Part shown: piece by piece, positions 6,005 to 32,297 of the stretch
Layout of the letters: every line of letters begins with the position of its first letter
Position numbering within the stretch: position 1 is the first letter of the stretch
From: a virus
Length of the DNA: 33,135 nt
Reading direction: 5' to 3' (one strand)
IMG/VR virus record: IMGVR_UViG_3300032213_001197
Coordinates: 1 to 33,135 of that record
Position numbers and translations under genes: made by a program
Notes under the pieces: generated by a model
What the model saw: only the letters and a program-made list of their open reading frames with translations
Told to the model about the DNA's origin: nothing
The model's database searches: none

Positions 6005-6497
6005 TTGATAGGCGCCTTGCTATTGCTCTATAGGTAACTCCTGCTGCCTCAGCGATATCTGCTGCTGGAATACCTCTGTTATATAACATACGAGCAAGGT
6101 GCGTAAACTCTTGATTAGCGATGGCTAGCGGGCTATCTGGAGCCGTTTTAGCCCTATACCTGTTGGCTAGACCTGCTAACTCTTTCAGGCGCGGCTTTAG
6201 GTCTGCTGGAACACTCGGAGATATAGAGCGTAGTCGAGGAGTATTGAGCAGAGGCGCTGTAGAGGTCAAAGACTTAGGTGGAGTTGGTGGTAGAGGTCTT
6301 CTCTGTTCTTGAGTAGCAGCGTTTTGAACCCAGAAGTGAACTGTTGATTTAGGTTTCTTGGGTTCTAGGGAGTTAGCCATAATCCCCAAAGACCAGCCTG
6401 ATTCCCAGAGGGCTTTCAGACGTCCGTGAAGTAAGTCCGTTGGGAGTGAAGAAAGAAATCTCACCTCATCTGCTGGGAGTTTTATCTTCTTCTTCAT
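5997..6497 (-). CDS. Double helix-turn-helix DNA-binding protein (paralogue of the protein at 9474-10139)
   Basis: This 166-residue protein is the first gene of the leftward structural operon. It has an N-terminal HTH-like segment (about 17-55, ending STVHFWVQN), a Pro/Thr-rich linker and a C-terminal HTH (about 128-163, IPAADIAEAAGVTYRAIARRL). The C-terminal half aligns by eye with that of the 221-aa protein at 9474-10139 (LKEL...YRAK... against LKEL...AQKVRSS..., both ending in an HTH), so the two are paralogues. No Shine-Dalgarno sequence precedes ATG 6497. A TAAGAT hexamer ends 6 nt upstream, compatible with a leaderless mRNA but with a poor -35. A role in regulating the divergent region next to it is inference. 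Confidence 0.72.
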   Translation of the reverse strand: MKKKIKLPADEVRFLSSLPTDLLHGRLKALWESGWSLGIMANSLEPKKPKSTVHFWVQNAATQEQRRPLPPTPPKSLTSTAPLLNTPRLRSISPSVPADLKPRLKELAGLANRYRAKTAPDSPLAIANQEFTHLARMLYNRGIPAADIAEAAGVTYRAIARRLSNG

Positions 6498-6940
6498 ATG
6501 CTTATCTTACAGTAAATAATAAACCCGTACATAGTTCTAAACAGTGTTTCTATTGGACGAAGGAGAAGAAAATATGAATGTTTCCAAAAAATGCTTTTGG
6601 CCTGTGAGTCGGAAGTAGTAGTATTTAGCCCTCGACCAAATCGTTTCCAAAGTATTTTTTATGAACTATAAACAATTTGTTTTTGTTTGGTTTCTTCTGG
6701 AAAAAGGCACTTGTTTTTTATTTTTATTTATTTCTCTGGGAACCTTCCTACCTTTTGTTATGTGAATAGTCAAAGTTGAGCCAAGGCGACTCAAGTTTAT
6801 GACTTGACAATAATTTTTTATTTTATTCTTGTTTTTTATTTTACTTTTTAGTTATTTATAAAGTTTTGTTTAGAAAAAATGTTTGACTTGTCTATGATGT
6901 TTTATTTATAAACTATAAATCTTTACTAGAGAGTCAAGGT

Positions 6941-7050
6941 GCTACTGACTAGTAGCCTCTGACTACTAACACTCTTATTACTCGCTAGTAGGTCTAGTGC
7001 TACTGACTAGTAGCCTAGAGGGTGGGGGTCTTGCTACTGACTAGTAGCCT
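6941..7050. repeat. Three copies of GCTACTGACTAGTAGCCT, candidate operator array
   Basis: Identical 18-bp copies start at 6941, 6999 and 7033 (offsets 58 and 34 bp). Each contains an inverted repeat, GCTACT-GACT-AGTAGC, as expected for a dimeric DNA-binding protein. Partial relatives (CTGACTACTAAC at 6959, CGCTAGTAGG at 6983) lie between them. The array sits just before the rightward promoters and is flanked by two paralogous HTH genes, so it is a natural operator candidate. Confidence 0.7.
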
Positions 7051-7118: not shown

Positions 7119-7146
7119 TTGACAAGGCTTACAGGTAGTGTAGTCT
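7119..7146 (+). promoter_or_regulatory. Sigma-A-like promoter of the first rightward cassette
   Basis: TTGACA at 7119-7124, a 16-bp spacer and TAGTCT at 7141-7146. The predicted start of transcription (about 7153) lies just before a conserved leader hairpin. Confidence 0.7.
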
Positions 7147-7154
7147 TATCTCAT

Positions 7155-7171
7155 AAGCACAGGGAGTGCTT
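7155..7171 (+). promoter_or_regulatory. Conserved 5'-leader hairpin, copy 1
   Basis: AAGCAC-AGGGA-GTGCTT forms a 6-bp stem with a 5-nt loop within a few bases of the predicted 5' end. The same element, in the context CTCATARGCAC...GTGCTTA, precedes the next two rightward genes. Confidence 0.65.
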
Positions 7172-7193
7172 AGGAATACGAAAGGGAAAACAA

Positions 7194-7415
7194 ATGGCAC
7201 AACACGGAGTAAGTATCACAACAGAAGGACACCACTATAACTTCGTAGTAGATACAACCCCTCAGGTTAGGGAACTACTACTAGGCACTACCGCACCTAT
7301 TAGTGAGGTAATTGTTATGGAGGAAGGCTACGGCAAGGAAGCCCGTATGCTAACCGCCGAGGAAATCTTGGCTATTGTCCTCAACCACCCTAAACAGGCA
7401 TTATCTCTAGCCTAA
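7194..7415 (+). CDS. Small hypothetical protein, 73 aa
   Basis: The start chosen is ATG 7194, which follows a purine-rich AAAGGGAAAACAA. The upstream TTG of the same frame lies in the promoter. The protein (MAQHGVSITTEGHHYNFVV...) looks like a compact beta-then-helix fold ending in LTAEEILAIVLNHPKQ. It has its own promoter, 5' hairpin and intrinsic terminator, so it is a monocistronic and probably strongly expressed cassette. The family is not recognised. Confidence 0.75.
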   Translation: MAQHGVSITTEGHHYNFVVDTTPQVRELLLGTTAPISEVIVMEEGYGKEARMLTAEEILAIVLNHPKQALSLA

Positions 7416-7429
7416 TAAACTAGGCAAGG

Positions 7430-7453
7430 AAGCCCCCGCAAGGGGGCTTTTTT
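7430..7453 (+). terminator. Intrinsic terminator after the first rightward gene
   Basis: AAGCCCCC-GCAA-GGGGGCTT is followed by a run of six T, a classic hairpin plus U-tract. Confidence 0.88.
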
Positions 7454-7489
7454 GTTGCCTAAATCACAGACACGCAGGGGTAAATAGAC

Positions 7490-7518
7490 TTGACACGCTT
7501 ACCCCCATAGCCTAGTCT
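7490..7518 (+). promoter_or_regulatory. Sigma-A-like promoter of the second rightward cassette
   Basis: TTGACA 7490-7495, 17-bp spacer, TAGTCT 7513-7518. The sequence after the -10 (TATCTCATAAGCAC) is nearly identical to that of the first cassette. Confidence 0.75.
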
Positions 7519-7526
7519 TATCTCAT

Positions 7527-7543
7527 AAGCACAAGGGGTGCTT
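7527..7543 (+). promoter_or_regulatory. Conserved 5'-leader hairpin, copy 2
   Basis: AAGCAC-AAGGG-GTGCTT has the same stem as copy 1 with a different loop. Confidence 0.65.
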
Positions 7544-7560
7544 ACAAAGGGGGCAACACA

Positions 7561-7728
7561 ATGGAAGGTCTAACACTAGACACAGGGTTCTCAACAATGG
7601 GAATGACTTTTGACGGAGATGAACCCGCAAAACTAAAAGTAAATAAGAAGGCTCGCTATTGCGAGTGTGGCACTAAACTCTCAATGTATAACCTAGAGAG
7701 TGCTTGCTACCGCCACCAAACAAACTAA
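7561..7728 (+). CDS. Small Cys-containing protein, 55 aa
   Basis: ATG 7561 follows AAAGGGGGCAACACA, a strong ribosome-binding site. The C-terminal half (ARYCECGTKLSMYNLESACYRHQ) has a CxC...CxxxH arrangement typical of tiny zinc-binding proteins of actinophages. It is expressed from its own promoter and bounded by a terminator. Function unknown. Confidence 0.75.
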   Translation: MEGLTLDTGFSTMGMTFDGDEPAKLKVNKKARYCECGTKLSMYNLESACYRHQTN

Positions 7729-7739
7729 GACTTACAGAG

Positions 7740-7763
7740 AAGCCCCCCGCAAGGGGGGTTTTT
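7740..7763 (+). terminator. Intrinsic terminator after the 55-aa gene
   Basis: GCCCCCC-GCAA-GGGGGGT is followed by TTTTT, similar in build to the terminator of the first cassette. Confidence 0.85.
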
Positions 7764-7780
7764 CTTTTGCCCGAGTAGAG

Positions 7781-7797
7781 TAGTAAAAAGTAAAAAA
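7781..7797 (+). repeat. Dispersed motif TAGYAAAAAGTAAAAA, rightward copy
   Basis: TAGTAAAAAGTAAAAAAC lies in the non-coding gap. It is on the + strand here, in the only rightward-transcribed block, whereas nearly all other copies are on the - strand. AAATTGTTTATAG follows about 30 bp later, as in the spacer units on the right side. Confidence 0.6.
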
Positions 7798-7908
7798 CTA
7801 ACGAAGCGAGGACATAGAAACAAAAATTGTTTATAGTGAGCAAAGCCGGCACCCGAGTATTTTCTTGACACGGCAAAGAAAAGTGATAGACAACACACCC
7901 CCCTAGAC

Positions 7909-7937
7909 TTGACAAGCGTGTAGGACTATTATAGTAT
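7909..7937 (+). promoter_or_regulatory. Sigma-A-like promoter of the third rightward cassette
   Basis: TTGACA 7909-7914, 17-bp spacer, TAGTAT 7932-7937. A second possible TTGACA (7865-7870) with TAGACA lies upstream. Confidence 0.75.
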
Positions 7938-7945
7938 TTACTCAT

Positions 7946-7962
7946 AGGCACGAAGAGTGCTT
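7946..7962 (+). promoter_or_regulatory. Conserved 5'-leader hairpin, copy 3
   Basis: AGGCAC-GAAGA-GTGCTT. Relative to copies 1 and 2 an A:U pair becomes a G:U pair, so the stem is kept while loop and stem sequence vary, which supports pairing in RNA. Confidence 0.65.
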
Positions 7963-7979
7963 ACAGAAAAGGAAAGAAA

Positions 7980-8132
7980 ATGCGAGGACTACCTGATAGC
8001 GCAGTAGTGGGAACCTATAAGAGGCTTGCCCGCAAACCCCGCCGTAGTCATAAAGACGAACAGTATTACCAAGATGTAGCAGACATTATGAACGGCTGGA
8101 TTTACAAACTAACTAGTTTCTTCAGACGATAA
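7980..8132 (+). CDS. Small protein, 50 aa (paralogue of the protein at 15209-15385)
   Basis: ATG 7980 follows AAAGGAAAGAAA. The protein starts MRGLPDSAVVGTYKR and ends YYQDVADIMNGWIYKLTSFFRR. The 58-aa leftward gene at 15209-15385 has the same two blocks (RGLPDSVV...VKR and YYQDVSDIMNAW), so these are paralogues expressed on opposite strands. Both are basic and helical with no transmembrane segment. Function unknown. Confidence 0.8.
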   Translation: MRGLPDSAVVGTYKRLARKPRRSHKDEQYYQDVADIMNGWIYKLTSFFRR

Positions 8133-14656: not shown

Positions 14657-15175
14657 TCACTCCGCTTTAGGAAGTGAGAGCAACCACGCTACGAAACGAG
14701 GATTACATAGAGCGTTAGGGCTTCTTTGCTTTCTAATCAGGTCAATCGCTTCTTGGGCTGAATAACCTTCTTTGATTAGGACTAGAGCCATAATCAGCCC
14801 TGACCTGTTCCAACCTGCTTGGCAACGAATAAGAACCTTCTTACCCGCCTTCCAATCTTCGTGGGCAACCCGCACCGCTTGGTAAATCTGCTTGAAGTCA
14901 ATGTCTTTCATGTCTCCGTCATAGAACGAATAACGAAACTCTTTGACTAGCCAATCCGTAGGTTGAGCCCACGCATAGGCTGTAATTACTGTGTCAAAGT
15001 CTGACTTAGTAATGAACGCACCCTCATTTTCAGCCCGTGTGTCAAATACTGTGTCAAAGTCGTCTGTTCCACCCTGCCATAAGTTAGGAAGAACCTCTGA
15101 CCATAAATCTTTATCTAGCACCAATCCATAATCGGGTCGGGCTAGGTTTTCATCTACAATTACATTTGTATCCAT
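14657..15175 (-). CDS. Dual-specificity/tyrosine phosphatase-like protein, 172 aa
   Basis: The C-x5-R signature VLIRCQAGWNRSG (Cys118, Arg124) identifies the phosphate-binding loop of the DSP/PTP superfamily, with SG following as in active enzymes. Asp86 or Asp88 in FYDGDMKD is the likely general acid. The helix after the P-loop (LIMALVLIKEGYSAQEAIDL) is typical. The His normally before the Cys is Arg here. AAAGGAG precedes ATG 15175. Related genes occur in actinophages, but targets are unknown. It may act on host phosphoproteins or nucleotides. Confidence 0.82.
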   Translation of the reverse strand: MDTNVIVDENLARPDYGLVLDKDLWSEVLPNLWQGGTDDFDTVFDTRAENEGAFITKSDFDTVITAYAWAQPTDWLVKEFRYSFYDGDMKDIDFKQIYQAVRVAHEDWKAGKKVLIRCQAGWNRSGLIMALVLIKEGYSAQEAIDLIRKQRSPNALCNPRFVAWLLSLPKAE

Positions 15176-15630: not shown

Positions 15631-16020
15631 TTAGCGGAGATACTCTCCGAACCGACCCCCTAGTAAGTATGCAGTCGGGATTACTTTCTTGTCGTATCCC
15701 AACCAATGAGCGACTTGTTCGTCAGTAAGACCTAAAGTCTCACCTTCTTCGTCCGCACCCCCCGTAATAATTACATTACCGAGAATAGGATTACCCGCGT
15801 TGAAAGTTTCTGAATAGATAGCCGAAGCAATCATATTTAGTTCTAGACCTTCGGCGATGCCATTTTCATTACACCACAAGTCCGCGTCTCCTAAACCAAC
15901 ACACTCAATCATTCCACCCACCGAATTGCTAAGTAGTTTGTAAGAGTTTCCAATCTCAAACTCCACAACGGACTTAGTGCCTTCAGTAGTAATGATTACT
16001 GCCTTTTGTTTTTTACCCAA
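15631..16020 (-). CDS. DUF3846 protein, 129 aa
   Basis: The family pattern is clear: SYKLLSNSVGGMIECVGL, then LWCNENG, LELNMIASAIYSETF and GNVIITGGADEEGETLGLTD. DUF3846 proteins are small, of unknown function and widespread in actinobacteria and their phages. GAGGGGG lies 8 nt before TTG 16020, so that start (MGKKQKAV) is better than the longer in-frame opening at 16059, which lies at the transcription start. Confidence 0.8.
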   Translation of the reverse strand: MGKKQKAVIITTEGTKSVVEFEIGNSYKLLSNSVGGMIECVGLGDADLWCNENGIAEGLELNMIASAIYSETFNAGNPILGNVIITGGADEEGETLGLTDEQVAHWLGYDKKVIPTAYLLGGRFGEYLR

Positions 16021-16049
16021 TTTAATCACCCCCTCGTTGTTGTTGCGTA

Positions 16050-16078
16050 AGTATAACACTTTGTATAAAGAAAGTCAA
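16050..16078 (-). promoter_or_regulatory. Promoter of the DUF3846 gene
   Basis: On the - strand TTGACT (16078-16073), 17-bp spacer, TATACT (16055-16050). Confidence 0.78.
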
Positions 16079-16678: not shown

Positions 16679-16807
16679 CCCCCCCCCCCCTACTCCTTAT
16701 GACGAACGAGGGTGGCAAATCTCAATGCACTAGCGATTATGGTCAATAAGTTGTTTGGAAGTTGCCCGCAGCCGGCTGCCGACTACTGCATTTTTTACTT
16801 TTTGCTA
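16679..16807. repeat. Non-coding spacer: C12 tract, A-type repeat and dispersed motif
   Basis: A run of 12 C (16679-16690) is followed by GGTCAATAAGTTGTTTGGAA and GTTGC (16741-16765) and by TTTTTTACTTTTTGCTA (16791-16807). The first repeat recurs almost unchanged at 18328-18351. Between them is a GC-rich GCAGCCGGCTGC palindrome. No gene is supported here. Confidence 0.6.
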
Positions 16808-18260: not shown

Positions 18261-18289
18261 ACAATAACACTTATCCGAAAGAAAGTCAA
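18261..18289 (-). promoter_or_regulatory. Promoter of the structured-leader transcript
   Basis: On the - strand TTGACT (18289-18284), 17-bp spacer, TATTGT (18266-18261), followed by TCGGTT as in several other promoters here. Confidence 0.72.
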
Positions 18290-18327: not shown

Positions 18328-18393
18328 GGTCAATAAGTTATTTGGAAGTGTGACCAGTGGTTAATCAAGTTAATGATTTTTTACTTTTTGCTA
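18328..18393 (-). repeat. A-type repeat plus dispersed motif overlapping a stop codon
   Basis: GGTCAATAAGTTATTTGGAA (from 18328) is a near copy of the sequence at 16741. TTTTTTACTTTTTGCTA (18377-18393) includes the TAG stop of the Ntn-hydrolase gene. Confidence 0.62.
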
Positions 18394-18963
18394 TGAGCCG
18401 AAGTGTTGAACGCTCACATAAATTGGAGGACTTGTGCTTGGGTCAAGCCTAGATGCAATAGTTATTGCTTGTCGTACTAAGGTTTTTGCTGTTGCCAGAG
18501 TTCTTTTTCTAGTTTCTAGAGTAGCAAGTAAAGCCCCCTGTGCATAACTACTTCCAGAACCAATAGTGTAAACGCCAGACTCATCTCTACCCCAAGCGTA
18601 GTCCTCGCCTATTTCATAGACAGTCCCGTTGATAACTACCAACAACTGACTATCGTGTTCCCCGTCTTTTGAGTAGGAAGCGTCCTCAAAGCATTTTTTG
18701 AGTTCAGGAATAAAGACCGCAGTCATAAACTTATCTAGCCTTGCCCCATAAGCGGTTGCCGAACAGACCGGTGGCTTGAAGACATACGCCAATAGGTTGA
18801 TAGCACGGAGGTCGCCAGCACAACCTATTAAGTAATTTCCGTTCTTAAATACCTTGCCGTTGTCTTTTGGGAGCGTATAAATCTTGCTGTTGTCTTCAGT
18901 CACTCTACTGTCGTAACCAACAACAGCCCATGCCTCGCCCTGAACGGCTGCAATAGTAGTCAC
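18391..18963 (-). CDS. Proteasome-like Ntn hydrolase, 190 aa
   Basis: The protein starts M-TTIAAVQGEAWAVVGYDSRVTE. After Met removal Thr would be residue 1, Asp (GYDSR) residue 17 and Lys (GKVF) about 36, matching the Thr1/Asp17/Lys33 catalytic set of proteasome beta and HslV subunits. LIGCAGD and IGSGSSYAQGAL match the conserved AGD and GSG elements of the fold. The start is GTG 18963 with GGGAG 8 nt upstream. The family comprises N-terminal-threonine peptidases. Whether this one is a peptidase, a ring subunit or a decoy is unknown. The stop codon lies within a dispersed motif. Confidence 0.75.
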   Translation of the reverse strand: MTTIAAVQGEAWAVVGYDSRVTEDNSKIYTLPKDNGKVFKNGNYLIGCAGDLRAINLLAYVFKPPVCSATAYGARLDKFMTAVFIPELKKCFEDASYSKDGEHDSQLLVVINGTVYEIGEDYAWGRDESGVYTIGSGSSYAQGALLATLETRKRTLATAKTLVRQAITIASRLDPSTSPPIYVSVQHFGS

Positions 18964-18980
18964 GCTTTTACTCCCGTTCG

Positions 18981-18997
18981 TTTTTTACTTTTTGCTA
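18981..18997 (-). repeat. Dispersed motif at a stop codon
   Basis: TTTTTTACTTTTTGCTA; read leftward it is TAGCAAAAAGTAAAAAA, and the TAG is the stop of the 81-aa gene. Confidence 0.65.
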
Positions 18998-19240
18998 AGA
19001 CTCGAAGCCGTCCCACAAATCTTTACGGAGTTGTTCATACCTGTCGCCATGATGCCCGTTGTATTTGTTTGAGATGTCTTCGTCCCTTAGAAGATAGTCT
19101 AGCGAAAGAACGGCAACGCAATCGGGCTCATCAAACATAATAACCAGTTTCGTATCCCCGTCCTCGGGGTTATCTACAATGGCGCAGATAAAAGGTAAGC
19201 CACCCCCGTTCGGGTGGTAGTCCTTAGCCACTATCTTCAT
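18995..19240 (-). CDS. Hypothetical protein, 81 aa
   Basis: MKIVAKDYHPNGGGLPFICA starts a beta-rich protein with a DUF-like compact look (LVIMFDEPDCVAVLSLDYLL) and an acidic C-terminus. ATG 19240 was chosen over GTG 19249 because the latter has no spaced ribosome-binding site, although the site for ATG is also weak (GAGAAG). Family not recognised. Confidence 0.65.
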   Translation of the reverse strand: MKIVAKDYHPNGGGLPFICAIVDNPEDGDTKLVIMFDEPDCVAVLSLDYLLRDEDISNKYNGHHGDRYEQLRKDLWDGFES

Positions 19241-19299
19241 GCTTCTCACGCCTAAAGGTTAGCGGGGGTTGCCGAAGGTGATTTGCTTCTAAAACACTA

Positions 19300-19404: not shown

Positions 19405-19761
19405 TTATAGTTTATCAAGTATTTCTAGAGGCACAATGACATCTGCTGAAATTACCTGTCCGACAGAGTTCGTTCTAGCGAACCTGCCTTTCGGGTTATC
19501 AAACCTAACAGTTACCTTTGTTCTACGAATACCAACCACCGAGCCTACTTCGCCTCGGAGGTATTTAGTTCCGCATCTTTCATTTATGGTAATTCTATCT
19601 CCCACAACGAAATCATCTATTTTTACTTTTTCCTTTAGAAGTTCTTTTCGTTCTTGGACAACCCTACTTAGTTCGGATAAGTTTTTATCTAACTCACCTC
19701 GTTCTATCTTGTCGCAGAAAGATACAAATAAATCTAAATTACTCGTCATTGTCATTGTCAT
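19405..19761 (-). CDS. Protein with SH3/KOW-like beta domain, 118 aa
   Basis: A helical N-terminal half (DKNLSELSRVVQERKELLKE) precedes a beta-barrel-like segment (FVVGDRITINERCGTKYLRG, EVGSVVGIRRTKVTVRFDNP) of the kind seen in KOW/SH3 modules. GGGGAGG lies before ATG 19761. ATGs at 19755 and 19749 are alternatives within an ATGACA repeat. It overlaps the upstream gene by 23 nt. Confidence 0.7.
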   Translation of the reverse strand: MTMTMTSNLDLFVSFCDKIERGELDKNLSELSRVVQERKELLKEKVKIDDFVVGDRITINERCGTKYLRGEVGSVVGIRRTKVTVRFDNPKGRFARTNSVGQVISADVIVPLEILDKL

Positions 19762-19981
19762 CAAGTTCCTCCCCTGCCTCATCAACAACCCCAATGCTGT
19801 TGGAAACGGAGGCAACATCAAAGCCATAGTATTCTTTTACAAATACAGACGCCACACGAATACTAAAGTCGTGTTCGCTCTCGTCTTCGTTGCGTAAGTT
19901 GTTGTCAAGAACGACAGTAGTCATCAAAGTAAAGTAATCTCCAACAAACATTACTGTTCTTGAAAGAGTTATCTCGTCCAT
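19739..19981 (-). CDS. Hypothetical protein, 80 aa
   Basis: A beta-rich body (RTVMFVGDYFTLMTTVVLDN) ends in an acidic tail with DDNDND. The ATG overlaps the previous stop by one base. Family not recognised. Confidence 0.7.
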   Translation of the reverse strand: MDEITLSRTVMFVGDYFTLMTTVVLDNNLRNEDESEHDFSIRVASVFVKEYYGFDVASVSNSIGVVDEAGEELDDNDNDE

Positions 19982-20511: not shown

Positions 20512-20540
20512 ACAATACACTATCTGACTCTAAAAGTCAA
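20512..20540 (-). promoter_or_regulatory. Promoter of the 19.4-20.5 kb operon
   Basis: On the - strand TTGACT (20540-20535), 17-bp spacer, TATTGT (20517-20512) followed by TCGGTTTAG. The TGA in the -35 is the stop codon of the upstream gene. Confidence 0.75.
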
Positions 20541-21584: not shown

Positions 21585-21613
21585 ACAATACACTAGTGCC
21601 CTCAGGGAGTCAA
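21585..21613 (-). promoter_or_regulatory. Promoter of the 168-aa gene
   Basis: On the - strand TTGACT (21613-21608), 17-bp spacer, TATTGT (21590-21585), followed by TCGGTTTAG. The leader contains an AGAGAG/CTCTCT hairpin. Confidence 0.74.
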
Positions 21614-22060: not shown

Positions 22061-22309
22061 TTATTTCACCTCAAAAGCGGAGTCTATTAGTTTTGCGAAA
22101 TCAGCAGGGGTCATTGGAGAAGTTGGGTAAAGTTCATCAAAGGTCTTAATGAGTGTTGCCACGGAGTGATACGACCCTGTGTCCGAGTATCTTTTTGCTA
22201 GTCTTTTTAGTTTCTCATTGTTTTCGCAAAGACTCTTAATAGACAACAACTCCGTTTCATTAAAGTCTCTTAGGCAGTTAAATCTTTTTAGTAACTCGTA
22301 TGCTTCCAT
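22061..22309 (-). CDS. Hypothetical helical protein, 82 aa
   Basis: The start MEAYELLKRFN at 22309 follows GCAAAAAGTAAAA, the dispersed motif in the ribosome-binding position. The longer frame to 22438 overlaps the upstream gene antiparallel to its reading and is rejected. The protein is all-helical (ELLSIKSLCENNEKLKRLAK). Family not recognised. Confidence 0.68.
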   Translation of the reverse strand: MEAYELLKRFNCLRDFNETELLSIKSLCENNEKLKRLAKRYSDTGSYHSVATLIKTFDELYPTSPMTPADFAKLIDSAFEVK

Positions 22310-22335
22310 TTTTACTTTTTGCTTCCTCTCTCGGT

Positions 22336-22515
22336 TTATGCCACTAACAAACGAACATTGTTTGCTAGTTGCTTTCTTGCTATCGGTTCGTGGTCGTAAG
22401 CCATGCCTTCGTCCCAGCCACAAATTGGTGCTTGCCATTTATCAAGCCACAACCCGTGAGTGTCCCGTTCTATTTGCCACCCACAACTCTTGCAGGTATC
22501 CATGCCGTTTGCCAT
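22336..22515 (-). CDS. 59-aa zinc-ribbon-like protein
   Basis: MANGMDTCKSCGWQIERDTH has a CxxC pair. A second Cys (PICGWDEG) and His residues could complete a metal site. TAGGAG lies before ATG 22515, which overlaps the upstream stop (TAATG). Confidence 0.7.
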   Translation of the reverse strand: MANGMDTCKSCGWQIERDTHGLWLDKWQAPICGWDEGMAYDHEPIARKQLANNVRLLVA

Positions 22516-23068: not shown

Positions 23069-24865
23069 TTAGGCAACTGCCCTTTGTCCAACTTTGTTTA
23101 GGACTCGCATAGCAGACATACCGATAATTTCGGAAGCCTCTGCTGGATTACTTATGTCTCTAACAACTTCTGCGTATCCTTGCCCGAGTCTGTTAGCAGT
23201 ATGTCCATTGTCAAAGGGAAGCCACAGAATTGCTACTCCTGCTTTTTCACACTTCTTTACAATTTCCATACACGACTTTGTTTCATCAGATGTGTATTCT
23301 CCGTCAGAAACAATAACTAGAAGTCTTGCCCCATTTCCGTAGAGCAACCCTAGAGTTCCGTCTAGTGCCTTGAACGCTTTAGTGAACTTCTCAGTTCCGT
23401 CCTGAGCAGTAAAGACATTTACCTGAGGCAACTTCTGTCCAACACTTAGTGTTGGGAATACATCATTTCCGTAATAGACCATAGCGCACTTACCTTGAAT
23501 ACGATTTACTGCCTCAGACATAACCCACGCAGTAGTAGCCATAGGGTTCATAGCAGAGCCCATTGACCCTGAAATGTCCACCATAACTCCAACTGTAAGT
23601 GTTGGTTCGTCTGTGTGCTTGCGAACAGTTTTGCGGAAAGGATTTTCGTTTTTCATAACTCCCATTGAACGAAGTGCCTTGTTCTGCATAATTGCTTTAG
23701 TGCGAAGTCTGCCCGGAGGAGTAGGACTAGCAATCTCTTTTACATCTCTCTCACGATACTTCGCTTTTTCAAGCAACTGACTAATACGAACAGAGGCAGA
23801 ACGCTCTAAGGAGTTAGGCTCTCTTTGTTCAACAAGTCTGCTATTGGTTTTGCCAACACCTACACCTGTTGATTTGTCAAAGACTTTGTTCGCAACTTCT
23901 TTGTTCTCTGCTTGCTCTTGTGCTTCTGAGGCTTTTGTTTGTGCCTCATCTTTCCAATCCTCTAATTGTTCTTGGTCGGCAAGTTCACCGAAGTTAGACA
24001 TCTCTATGTTTTCCGCAATCTCTTTTAGAGTTTCCATAATTGCGTCAGCCAATTCTTTAGGCATAGGGATACCGCCCTTACCGCCCTCAGGATTTTCATT
24101 AGGAGTCTCGCCTCTTTCTTTACCAATCTTGCGAGCCAACTCAGCCCAATCTTTTGCTATTGGATAAAGTTCTGTTGCGTCTGAGTGCTTGTCGTGGCGT
24201 TGTGCCATGCGTGCTAACTCACGGAAAGCATTTAGGTTGTCCTCACCTATTTGGCTTTTTACCCACTCATCTATTTCGGCAACTTCTCTTATAGAAAGAA
24301 TACCTGCTTCAACTCGGGCGTGAACAAGACCTATGAGATTTGTAATTGCTATTGTTGGTTGCTCATTTGTAAAGGCTTCTTTAGCATCTCCAATAGCAAG
24401 TTCCATAGCGCAAGAGCGAAGGAAAGGCTTAGCCTTACTATCTCTTAGCAATCCTTGATACTCAATGCGACCTTCCTCTAACAACATCAAGGCTTCATAC
24501 TCATCACGCTTTAGTTCTTTGTATGCGTCAGGCATAGACCATTGTGAGAAGCGAGCGTGGAAGGCTTCGTGCATAATCGCACCTGTTGCCATTGGAAACT
24601 CGTATTGTGTTTTGCGAAGTGTTATGTCGCCTATGTTGTCAGGAGTAATTCCATTTCCGAAAGCAACTTCAACATTTACTTCTACTTCCGCAGTTTGCGG
24701 GTTGTAGCAAGCGGGGGCAGAACCACCCGCACCGGGACCTACATACGCAACAAGGTCGTCTCTGTGAGACCACTTGTTCGCTAGGTATCCAACATCTCTA
24801 CCAACTTTGAGCCACTCAACTGGCGTTGCTTGCGCTCTAGTTTCACCACTTTTTATGTGAGCCAT
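23069..24865 (-). CDS. Metallopeptidase-like protein with C-terminal VWA domain, 598 aa (MoxR partner)
   Basis: The N-terminal third has HEAFH (residues 99-103), an HExxH zinc motif, and EEGRIE (130-135) that could supply a third ligand. A charged helical linker (about 200-380) follows, then a VWA domain with an intact MIDAS motif DISGSMGS (Asp430, Ser432, Ser434) and further acidic loops (VSDGEYTSDE). This CobT-like layout is the usual partner of a MoxR/CobS-type AAA+ ATPase, and that ATPase is encoded immediately upstream. Such pairs remodel or insert metals into target complexes. GGGAG precedes ATG 24865. The phage role is unknown. Confidence 0.85.
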   Translation of the reverse strand: MAHIKSGETRAQATPVEWLKVGRDVGYLANKWSHRDDLVAYVGPGAGGSAPACYNPQTAEVEVNVEVAFGNGITPDNIGDITLRKTQYEFPMATGAIMHEAFHARFSQWSMPDAYKELKRDEYEALMLLEEGRIEYQGLLRDSKAKPFLRSCAMELAIGDAKEAFTNEQPTIAITNLIGLVHARVEAGILSIREVAEIDEWVKSQIGEDNLNAFRELARMAQRHDKHSDATELYPIAKDWAELARKIGKERGETPNENPEGGKGGIPMPKELADAIMETLKEIAENIEMSNFGELADQEQLEDWKDEAQTKASEAQEQAENKEVANKVFDKSTGVGVGKTNSRLVEQREPNSLERSASVRISQLLEKAKYRERDVKEIASPTPPGRLRTKAIMQNKALRSMGVMKNENPFRKTVRKHTDEPTLTVGVMVDISGSMGSAMNPMATTAWVMSEAVNRIQGKCAMVYYGNDVFPTLSVGQKLPQVNVFTAQDGTEKFTKAFKALDGTLGLLYGNGARLLVIVSDGEYTSDETKSCMEIVKKCEKAGVAILWLPFDNGHTANRLGQGYAEVVRDISNPAEASEIIGMSAMRVLNKVGQRAVA

Positions 24866-25003: not shown

Positions 25004-26062
25004 TTAGATTTTGGCAGGTTTCACTTCCTCACCGAACGCCCTTGAAAGGACATCTGCGATAGTTGCTCTATCGCTTTCAGGTGAGGACGAGATTAGGTTT
25101 GCGAGAGCAAACGCAGTTCCGAAAGTTGTTGCTATGTCTCGGAAGGCAAGCAACTCACGCATTTGTGGAGACCAACTAATTTGGTTATCCAGTTGCTTAC
25201 GATAAAGATTTTGTGCCGAAGTGATTAGCAAACTTGGAACACCCAACTTCTTTGCGAGTGCGTAGTCAGTAGTCATTTCAACTTGTAGAGTGAAGCGAGA
25301 AGTCAATGCCTCAGAGATACGAACTCCGGGGGCATTAGGGTTGGTAGCACTCACCACAAAGAAATCAGGGTGAGCCTTGATAACTCCACGCTCGGGATTA
25401 GCAGATACAACTAACTCTCTGCGTCCGTCCATTGTTCCGTAAAGTATTGCGAGAACCTTTGGGTCAATCAAACCAATTTCGTCAATGAAATAGACCCAAC
25501 CATTTTCCATACACTTTATTAAATCTCCGTCAATCCACTCAAAGTTTCCACTTGGAGTTTGGACATAAGAGCCAATTAGGTCAGAGACTTCAATGTCTCC
25601 GTGTCCTACGAGTGTTCGCATTTCCTCACCGAAGGTTGCTTCAACGAGAGCAGTTTTACCTGTACCTGGCGCACCATAGAACATTGGGAACATAGGTGAA
25701 CCTACACCTGTAATAACTGATTGCTTTGTGGCTTCTTTAGCATTACGCAAAGCCATAACATCTTGATGCTCTCCCCAAGAGCGAGCATAGTAAATAGCAC
25801 CATTAGGTCTTAGATAACTGTCCACTCCAATAATTGCTTCTACTTGTGGCAGTTCCATTTTCAACCTTGACTTTCGTGGCGCACGCTCTGAACCAACTGC
25901 TCGCTCAACATAGCGACCAGCAGGTAGAACTTGTGAACTAAGTGCGACAGTAGCCTTTTCATTTATCCCCTGTGTAGCAACTAGTTCAATAATTTCCCAT
26001 AGCGTTGGAGATGAGTTAGGAGTAATCACTCCATACTTATCTTTTGCTTTTATTGCGTCCAT
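25004..26062 (-). CDS. MoxR-type AAA+ ATPase, 352 aa
   Basis: Walker A GAPGTGKTA (130-138), Walker B VYFIDEIGLI (190-199), sensor-1 SATNPN (238-243) and a SRF arginine (258) place this in the MoxR/CobS/RavA group, which works with VWA proteins as ATP-driven chaperones. The N-terminal 110 residues are an extra region. LVGHGDIEVSDLIGSY resembles the insert region of the family. It follows the 152-aa gene by 21 bp, and AAGGGGG precedes ATG 26062. Confidence 0.9.
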   Translation of the reverse strand: MDAIKAKDKYGVITPNSSPTLWEIIELVATQGINEKATVALSSQVLPAGRYVERAVGSERAPRKSRLKMELPQVEAIIGVDSYLRPNGAIYYARSWGEHQDVMALRNAKEATKQSVITGVGSPMFPMFYGAPGTGKTALVEATFGEEMRTLVGHGDIEVSDLIGSYVQTPSGNFEWIDGDLIKCMENGWVYFIDEIGLIDPKVLAILYGTMDGRRELVVSANPERGVIKAHPDFFVVSATNPNAPGVRISEALTSRFTLQVEMTTDYALAKKLGVPSLLITSAQNLYRKQLDNQISWSPQMRELLAFRDIATTFGTAFALANLISSSPESDRATIADVLSRAFGEEVKPAKI

Positions 26063-26681: not shown

Positions 26682-26963
26682 TTACTCTTTTTCCATAGCC
26701 TTGTCAAATTGAGCGTCAAGGTCGTTGTTCTCTACTGCCTCACGCAGTTCTGCCTTTTGTCGCTCGTCAGCCCGAGCAAGGGCTAGAGCAAGGGTAGCCC
26801 TCTCCGCATCTCCGACCTCATCTATGGCTTGCCAATCTGCCTCAGACCAGTTTTCACAATCAACAACAACCATGCCATCTGCGACCCCATAGTTTCCATC
26901 AAGGGCAAAGTAGTGGTGATTTTTGTCAGGTGTCATTTCCTCTTGGCTTAGTAGTTCACTCAT
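26682..26963 (-). CDS. Hypothetical protein, 93 aa
   Basis: ATG 26963 is joined to TAGCAAAAAGTAAA, the dispersed motif in the ribosome-binding position. A beta N-terminal half (HHYFALDGNYGVADGMVVVD) is followed by an acidic helix rich in Ala/Glu (ATLALALARADERQKAELRE). Family not recognised. Confidence 0.7.
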   Translation of the reverse strand: MSELLSQEEMTPDKNHHYFALDGNYGVADGMVVVDCENWSEADWQAIDEVGDAERATLALALARADERQKAELREAVENNDLDAQFDKAMEKE

Positions 26964-26983
26964 TTTACTTTTTGCTACCTCTC

Positions 26984-27860: not shown

Positions 27861-28109
27861 GTGCTTAGTGGTGCGAAACTCGGGAAGCGTGTAGTCAGGA
27901 AGTCCAAACATAAATCCTCCACCATTACCTTCTTCATCTTGCGAGAGGACAAGTTCAACAAGTTCTCCATTTGCGAGTCTTGCTACGAACATTGGAAACC
28001 CACGACCTCCAAAGTCATCAGAGTCAGTTCCCTTGAACCTAAGGATTGTTGCGCCTTCAAGTTGTTTGTAGTATCCCAAGTTCCAGCGTTCTTGTGTTGA
28101 GTCTTTCAT
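27846..28109 (-). CDS. Hypothetical protein, 87 aa
   Basis: ATG 28109 follows GGAGTAAAAAGTAAAA, a form of the dispersed motif that also contains the TAA stop of the previous gene. The sequence FVARLANGELVELVLSQDEE, then GNGGGFMFGL looks like a small conserved phage family, but I cannot name it. Cytosolic, beta-rich. Confidence 0.72.
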   Translation of the reverse strand: MKDSTQERWNLGYYKQLEGATILRFKGTDSDDFGGRGFPMFVARLANGELVELVLSQDEEGNGGGFMFGLPDYTLPEFRTTKHLTKK

Positions 28110-28118
28110 TTTTACTTT

Positions 28119-28268
28119 TTACTCCTGTTCCTCTAGGGCACGGCGTTTGTTCTCCAAACGAGTGCGGTTGCGCTTAGTCCTCTTGTCAGCAAACACCTGT
28201 GCTTTTTGGTTCAGCACAAAGCGACCTCGCAAGCGAAGCAAGCCGTCAAGTGGGTTTTTCTTTTTCAT
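28119..28268 (-). CDS. 49-aa very basic protein, leaderless mRNA
   Basis: MKKKNPLDGLLRLRGRFVLN continues into an Arg/Lys-rich helix (DKRTKRNRTRLENKRR). The -10 TATACT ends 6 nt before ATG 28268, so transcription is predicted to begin at the A of the start codon, and no ribosome-binding site exists. A nucleic-acid-binding role is plausible from charge alone. Confidence 0.72.
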   Translation of the reverse strand: MKKKNPLDGLLRLRGRFVLNQKAQVFADKRTKRNRTRLENKRRALEEQE

Positions 28269-31372: not shown

Positions 31373-32274
31373 TCTGGCCTGGCCGTTTCTTCGGTTTCAG
31401 TAGTTGAAAGTTCAACTAACGGTTCTGCATCAATAATGTTTGTATCTGGGGAGGCCGCTTGTATTTGTCCCAAGGCGGCGTTCCGTAACGCCTCAAGCCG
31501 TTGAGCAATAATCTCGTGCGGTTGTAGACCTATGTTCTCTACCTCCACCGTCAACTCCACCCCTCCACGCACGCCGGCGCGGTCAAGGATTTCTGTGGAG
31601 GCTTTCAGTCTTACTGGTTCTGATTGGGCATCCATCATAAGTTCTTCAAGAACCTCGACAGCGTAAGGTGCACTCTGAACAATTTTTGCACGTGCCCGTT
31701 CGATGTCCCCGCCTGGCTTCCGTGAATACTTCAGATGGTAGCGACAAGCACCGTCATCCTTCAGACGCCCGCTTGTCCACATTAGACAACGGATACCGTC
31801 TGACTTGACAATCTTACATCTATGTGGTAGACCTTTCGGTTGACGCTTGGCGGAAACCTCGCCGTTCTCTTGTTCCTTGAGGTAAGCACGGGTTGAGGCG
31901 ATTACCCAAGGAGGGGTCATCTTGCAAGCCGTTGCATCAATTATCAAGTCCAGGCCGGTCAAGAAGTCTGAATTGTTATTAGTTGGGTCCGTTAGCAGCG
32001 GACGCCGTTCAGAGAAGTTAACAAGTCTGCGCTCGCGGAGTTGTTCTTTAGAGCGTGCCGATATAAGACCCGTTGAATGTCCGATTTGGTCGTAGACATA
32101 ATCCCAAGTAAGTCCTGCGTCTCTGAGGATTTGACGGTTCTCAAAAGTATCTTCGCAGACCCCACGGTCATACTCAACAATCCCGAACTCGGTTAGGTCG
32201 GGCCTAAGGTCAAGGGGAGTTGATATATCGGGGAGGCCGGCTTCTTCTGGCTCATCCATCTCTAATTCATTCAT
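31369..32274 (-). CDS. Putative terminase small subunit with Cys module, 301 aa
   Basis: The C-terminal third (RARAKIVQSAPYAVEVLEEL, MMDAQSEPVRLKASTEILDR, AGVRGG) resembles the helical part of phage small terminases and related packaging proteins. The middle HRCKIVKSDGIRCLMWTSGR, then CRYHLKY matches the RC...G..C...CRYH module fused to such proteins in actinophages. The N-terminus is acidic with a helical region. Small terminases bind the packaging site and recruit the large subunit. No large terminase is visible nearby, so the call stays tentative. ATG 32274 follows GCAAAAAGTAAAA. Confidence 0.6.
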   Translation of the reverse strand: MNELEMDEPEEAGLPDISTPLDLRPDLTEFGIVEYDRGVCEDTFENRQILRDAGLTWDYVYDQIGHSTGLISARSKEQLRERRLVNFSERRPLLTDPTNNNSDFLTGLDLIIDATACKMTPPWVIASTRAYLKEQENGEVSAKRQPKGLPHRCKIVKSDGIRCLMWTSGRLKDDGACRYHLKYSRKPGGDIERARAKIVQSAPYAVEVLEELMMDAQSEPVRLKASTEILDRAGVRGGVELTVEVENIGLQPHEIIAQRLEALRNAALGQIQAASPDTNIIDAEPLVELSTTETEETARPE

Positions 32275-32297
32275 TTTTACTTTTTGCTTTCCAAAAA

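Follow-up and report, generated by a model that had tools for sequence, protein, structure and literature searches.

The window, the whole stretch of DNA analyzed here, is a 33,135-base viral fragment from IMG/VR that carries a gene for a proteasome-like protein. The question raised by this locus is whether the protein is an intact enzyme and, if so, how it would work with neither a second proteasome subunit nor an unfoldase encoded beside it.

The gene, its active site, and its predicted fold

The peptidase ORF is located at exactly 18391–18963 on the minus strand and encodes a 190-amino acid proteasome-like N-terminal-threonine (Ntn) hydrolase (N-terminus V/MTTIAAVQGEAWAVVGYDSRV...). Its GTG is the sole start codon after the preceding in-frame stop, as is likewise the case in relatives, and a Shine-Dalgarno-like GGGAG stretch (18971–18975, minus strand) lies 7 nt upstream. 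Methionine aminopeptidase is expected, from its specificity, to remove a methionine that precedes threonine. Because the protein reads M-T-T-I-A-A-V from its only start, there is no propeptide, and a free threonine would be exposed upon removal of the methionine.

With the methionine counted as residue 1, the active-site set consists of T2, D18, K37, the oxyanion glycine G47, the GSG element (G135-S136-G137), and D174; the AGD element is A49-G50-D51. The original prediction, made with numbers that count from the threonine, had listed the Thr after Met, the Asp, the Lys, and the AGD and GSG elements as kept, and each is found in place. It had further tied the assignment to conservation of T2 and D18 among homologues. 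In an alignment of 98 proteins, position 2 is Thr in all but two, which have Ser; D18 is kept in 97, K37 in 98, G47 in 96, and D174 in 87. These counts arise partly by construction, as patterns like MTT[IVL] or KDNGKVFK had been used to fetch loci. G135 and G137 are kept in all 98, and position 136 is always S, T, or C; the background for these values is a median column identity of 0.57. The active-site residues are also kept in 23 divergent phage rows, and so are they in those phages and plasmids that came from pattern-free tblastn searches and thus escape this bias. With the set conserved in nearly all relatives, catalysis appears plausible, as had been proposed. The relatives comprise 52 IMG/VR loci at 48–94% identity and 34 phage records, and a second scan brought at least 571 confirmed peptidase stretches. 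The gene is under purifying selection, with a dN/dS of ~0.09 across the clade where computable.

Family profiles place the protein among proteasome homologues. PHROG 1040 ('peptidase HslV family') matches its whole length (E = 1.1e-25, residues 1–183), and Pfam PF00227 (Proteasome) scores 23.8 bits, above its cut-off of 22.4. A profile built from the peptidase alignment matches HslV (E = 1e-15) and BPH (E = 2e-12) chains in the PDB. The proteasome-like fold that had been forecast is also predicted by AlphaFold2 (pLDDT 79, pTM 0.78; input of 15 window-clade sequences), with residues 21–34 unreliable (pLDDT <50). In VIA-align, the model superimposes over 158–169 residues on BPH (5ovs, 5ovt, and 5ovu; Z 17.1), Anbu (Z 16.5), and HslV (Z 16.4), and 20S β subunits score about 16 (15.6–15.8 for Mycobacterium PrcB chains); rows within 1 Z are to be taken as tied. 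The best E value in Foldseek is 3e-10, and the best viral structural match is an uncultured Caudovirales 'HslV' (A0A6J7XBU4, 36% identity). Both helices H1 and H2 are predicted (residues 52–61 and 73–94), and the chain stops after the last core strand. The protein thus combines a predicted proteasome fold with a conserved N-terminal Thr/Ser nucleophile, equivalents of Asp17 and Lys33, and an oxyanion Gly. PHROG 1040, PF00227, the predicted model, residue conservation, and dN/dS together confirm that the ORF encodes an intact proteasome-fold Ntn hydrolase.

Relationship to known proteasome homologues and phages

The protein is a member of PHROG 1040 and one of the 'group I' proteasome homologues, a phage family described in 2021. 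Fuchs, Alva, and Lupas then reported the phage homologues AAH, PPH, and CPH, identified neither a genomic context nor a function nor an AAA+ partner for them, and did not find AAH in actinobacterial phages (PMC8665760). The window protein resembles these group I members in having a compact subunit with no propeptide and no C-terminal S12/H5, in occurring in phages, and in having no known AAA+ partner (PMC8665760). PPH has about 140 residues and lacks helix H2 (PMC8665760), whereas the window protein has 190 residues and possesses H2; this length and the two predicted helices rule out membership in PPH.

BPH, the best structural match, is similar in having no known unfoldase and a loop of like length and acidity. 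From AGD to GSG, the window protein spans 87 residues, E. coli HslV 77, and the BPH segment 90; residues 92–106 of the window protein carry a net charge of −4. In BPH, the loop at this position is long and acidic, a feature that has been linked with the lack of an unfoldase (PMC8665760). Sequence identity to BPH is 16–19%, and BPH is bacterial, whereas the window protein is from a phage and is known here from its sequence and a monomer model. HslV shares the fold, the Thr1/Asp17/Lys33-type site, and the MTTI start, but differs in its shorter loop and in its partner HslU, which is absent from the phages. An HslV equivalog is rejected, as TIGR03692 gives 28 bits against a cut-off of 157.75 and no HslU/ClpX-type gene occurs in 24 phage records. 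Identity with PrcB is ruled out by the lack of a match to TIGR03690 at E ≤ 1 and of a propeptide (MTTI start, no upstream start codon).

The window phage is a freshwater actinobacterial phage related to Actinomycetia phage DSL-LC01. The portals of the two phages are 71% identical, and DSL-LC01 is predicted to infect Actinomycetia (PMC10611076); with a Microbacterium phage, portal identity is about 61%. DSL-LC01 has the same gene order (AAA+, VWA, peptidase, portal), and its peptidase (WJZ48484.1, 46.9% identity) has the active-site set and MTTI start in common with the window protein, as do the other PHROG 1040 members A0A6J7XBU4, gp135 of Microbacterium phage Pumpernickel, and those of the Arthrobacter phages Pitbull and Hum25. 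In the DSL-LC01 clade, the peptidase has a longer insertion and C-terminal tail than in the window clade, and its gene is often followed by a WhiB gene; the extra gene for an 81–84-amino acid protein found upstream in the window clade is absent. In a rough tree with long branches and unsettled bootstrap values, the window clade groups with ct2KA10, Pumpernickel, Pitbull/Hum25, and DSL-LC01 (support 96/98). Another group unites Moorella, Geobacillus, and enterobacterial phages with the plasmid homologues from rhizobia and Streptomyces, through which bacterial AAH was sampled. Phages infecting E. coli, Salmonella, and Vibrio also carry members of the family. In other phages, the neighbors of the peptidase are unrelated, being nucleotide-metabolism or other non-head genes.

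A pattern scan, restrictive by nature, of 84,980 bacterial and archaeal genomes returned a single window-clade member, itself phage-like, a result that is no more than suggestive. This member (L067; peptidase and WhiB-like gene, 6380–7009 and 7657–8085) is on a phage-like contig binned into a Gammaproteobacteria MAG, probably by a binning error. For Moorella phage MTATph1 (WPA89675.1; L062, 3941–4456), the match extends upstream of the annotated start to query residue 1, where the N-terminal nucleophile region would lie; the annotated start therefore seems to be too far downstream.

Phage proteasome homologues are thus known already. The present locus adds that an abundant freshwater actinophage clade carries an intact, strongly selected copy, and relatives in the cultured actinophages Pumpernickel, Pitbull, and Hum25 make its function open to genetic testing in laboratory hosts.

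The motor question and the likely mode of action

The original prediction had noted that neither an α subunit nor an HslU-type ATPase adjoins the peptidase, and indeed no second proteasome-family gene or α subunit was found in the window. Among phage records, some of which may be fragments, the hslU profile TIGR00390 matched in 0/24 (positive in 14/14 known genomes as control) and Pup was found in 0/12. The nearest AAA+ gene is, as had been stated, that of a MoxR-like ATPase (25004–26062, minus strand; AAA_5, PF07728, E = 2.8e-17), about 6 kb upstream of the peptidase. Beside it is a gene for a VWA/CoxE-like protein (23069–24865, minus strand; weak match to PF05762, E = 0.0014, below cut-off), an order also seen in DSL-LC01. 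AAA_5 is above cut-off in 18/24 of these possibly fragmentary records, and has no match in those of Pitbull (41 kb) and D'Alembert (92 kb). Because both of these phages carry the peptidase, the MoxR-like ATPase is not required as its motor, though it is kept in most of the lineage; it is probably a lineage neighbor only. A host ATPase could still serve the peptidase, even though the phage has no ATPase gene for it.

The peptidase gene is 13 kb from the portal gene, among small accessory genes, in keeping with the phage accessory region to which it had been assigned. A role as prohead protease is unsupported by this location and by that of its relatives among non-head genes. The accessory genes include one for a dual-specificity protein phosphatase (14657–15175, minus strand; PF00782, E = 1.6e-11).

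We favor, with a probability of about 0.58, an active, self-compartmentalizing N-terminal-threonine peptidase of group I, on the HslV/BPH side, that has no ATPase of its own. By analogy, its likeliest mechanism would resemble that thought for BPH, with self-assembly and no dedicated ATPase. Host methionine aminopeptidase would cleave the methionine and free Thr1. The hydroxyl of this threonine would then cleave peptide bonds, with K37 and D18 as its activating residues and G47 as the oxyanion-hole glycine. Subunits would self-assemble into a ring or double ring, a possibility also raised in the original prediction. Such a ring would operate independently of ATP and of a dedicated AAA+ unfoldase and may, in the course of infection, take in polypeptides of host or phage that are unfolded or exposed.

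The alternative that survives best, itself unlikely, is an HslV-like mode of action, in which the peptidase would dock on an AAA+ protein, either a host unfoldase such as HslU or ClpX or the MoxR-like ATPase of the phage, and would use ATP to degrade folded substrates. HslV chains are indeed the best sequence-profile matches in the PDB, and the MoxR-like gene is at a distance of about 6 kb and recurs in most records. Against this stand the lack of an HslU/ClpX-like gene in all 24 phage records, the missing AAA_5 match in Pitbull and D'Alembert, and a loop following H2 that is longer than in HslV. No AAA+ protein was found to co-occur with these homologues in the earlier survey either (PMC8665760).

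Proteolysis is not the sole possible chemistry, because connectase, a monomeric and specific ligase, has the same fold and nucleophile (PMC8665760). The phage protein might accordingly be a specific processing enzyme or a connectase-like peptide ligase that acts on a single protein or a small number of proteins from phage or host, possibly with help from the 81–84-amino acid neighbor, the product of a single family tightly linked upstream. We hold this to be improbable. Connectase has a helical insertion between strands 3 and 4, where the model predicts no helix, though its residues 21–34 are of low confidence, and the neighbor is missing from about 40% of peptidase copies and from DSL-LC01.

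Many Actinobacteria possess a proteasome, and the original prediction had suggested that the phage protein could mix with it. Co-assembly or interference with the host 20S proteasome (PrcA/PrcB) draws on the fold shared with PrcB, but is disfavored to the point of being very improbable. The peptidase lies on the HslV/BPH side, has no TIGR03690 match at E ≤ 1 and no propeptide, and its family profile is matched by PrcB weakly and over residues 2–52. Moreover, E. coli, Salmonella, and Vibrio, whose phages carry the same family, have HslVU and lack a 20S proteasome. Literature on a host proteasome in freshwater actinobacteria yielded nothing useful. Least probable of all is a catalytically dead or degenerate relic, for which nothing speaks beyond the lack of a known function and against which stand the retention of every catalytic residue and the low dN/dS across the clade.

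The small upstream protein and other features of the window

Directly upstream of the peptidase gene is a gene (18995–19249, minus strand) for a small protein of 84 amino acids from its GTG or 81 from an internal ATG at 19240. It is the new lead from this locus, providing a linked protein family as a concrete candidate partner for the peptidase. A relative of the small gene accompanies 59 of 102 distinct peptidase copies and is within 60 bp upstream in 50 of those. Conversely, scans with the small protein alone found the peptidase on 16/16 loci, and scans with its alignment found it on 79/80 loci, 66 of them with the two genes within 100 bp. A 116.7-kb record (L233) has the small protein and no peptidase, and the DSL-LC01 clade has the peptidase and no small protein; the pairing is obligate in neither direction.

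A control neighbor (15631–16059) was accompanied by the peptidase on 10/11 loci, but on either side and 0.6–4 kb away; a second control bait (19405–19827) found two loci only. Because the first control co-occurs as well, co-occurrence is largely a matter of synteny within the lineage, and linkage is rejected as proof of the small protein's function. What stands out is solely the adjacency, in that the small gene, unlike the control, keeps its place directly upstream. The small protein matched nothing in Pfam or PHROG. Its model (pLDDT 88.9) has four strands and two helices, and gave no PDB match at E ≤ 0.001, with the best Z of 4.8 (Pur-alpha) being below the usual noise level. We regard the small protein as a linked neighbor and a possible partner. 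A two-gene phage proteolysis module, in which a motor-free proteasome-like ring is combined with this protein as adaptor, assembly factor, or inhibitor and removes or recycles particular host or phage proteins in infection, is a speculative and doubtful extension of the self-assembling, ATPase-free peptidase favored above.

The second gene upstream of the peptidase (19405–19827, minus strand) looks by eye, from upstream ORFs of four loci (L045, L121, L122, and L054), like a homologue of the gene that immediately precedes the peptidase gene in the DSL-LC01 clade; its product may be KOW/SH3-like. On the other side, just downstream of the peptidase gene, is a Sigma-70-like site (TTGACT-17-TATTGT, 18261–18289, minus strand), a consensus match only. 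The transcription unit may therefore end with the peptidase gene. Intergenic repeats of this site at 18261–18289, 20512–20540, and 21585–21613 (minus strand) resemble a host-type promoter. No tRNA or Rfam match was found in the window.

For the ORF at 22061–22438 (minus strand), the true start is likely an ATG near 22309 (MEAYELL...), which is reached by the A-rich repeated motif, and not the listed upstream start. Short, near-identical direct repeats occur at 6939–7050 and 7136–7963, beside a coding-strand switch. The motif TAGCAAAAAGTAAAAAA has 23 sites in the window at ≤3 mismatches, as compared to 0.5 expected, mostly on the coding strand (e.g., 18377–18393, 18981–18997, 16791–16807, 26961–26977, 28108–28124, and 32273–32289). 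Sites often lead into an ATG start codon or come after a stop codon. The core of the motif also occurs 11–15 times per 20 kb in five other loci (L018, L001, L006, L008, and L120) and hardly at all in other clades.
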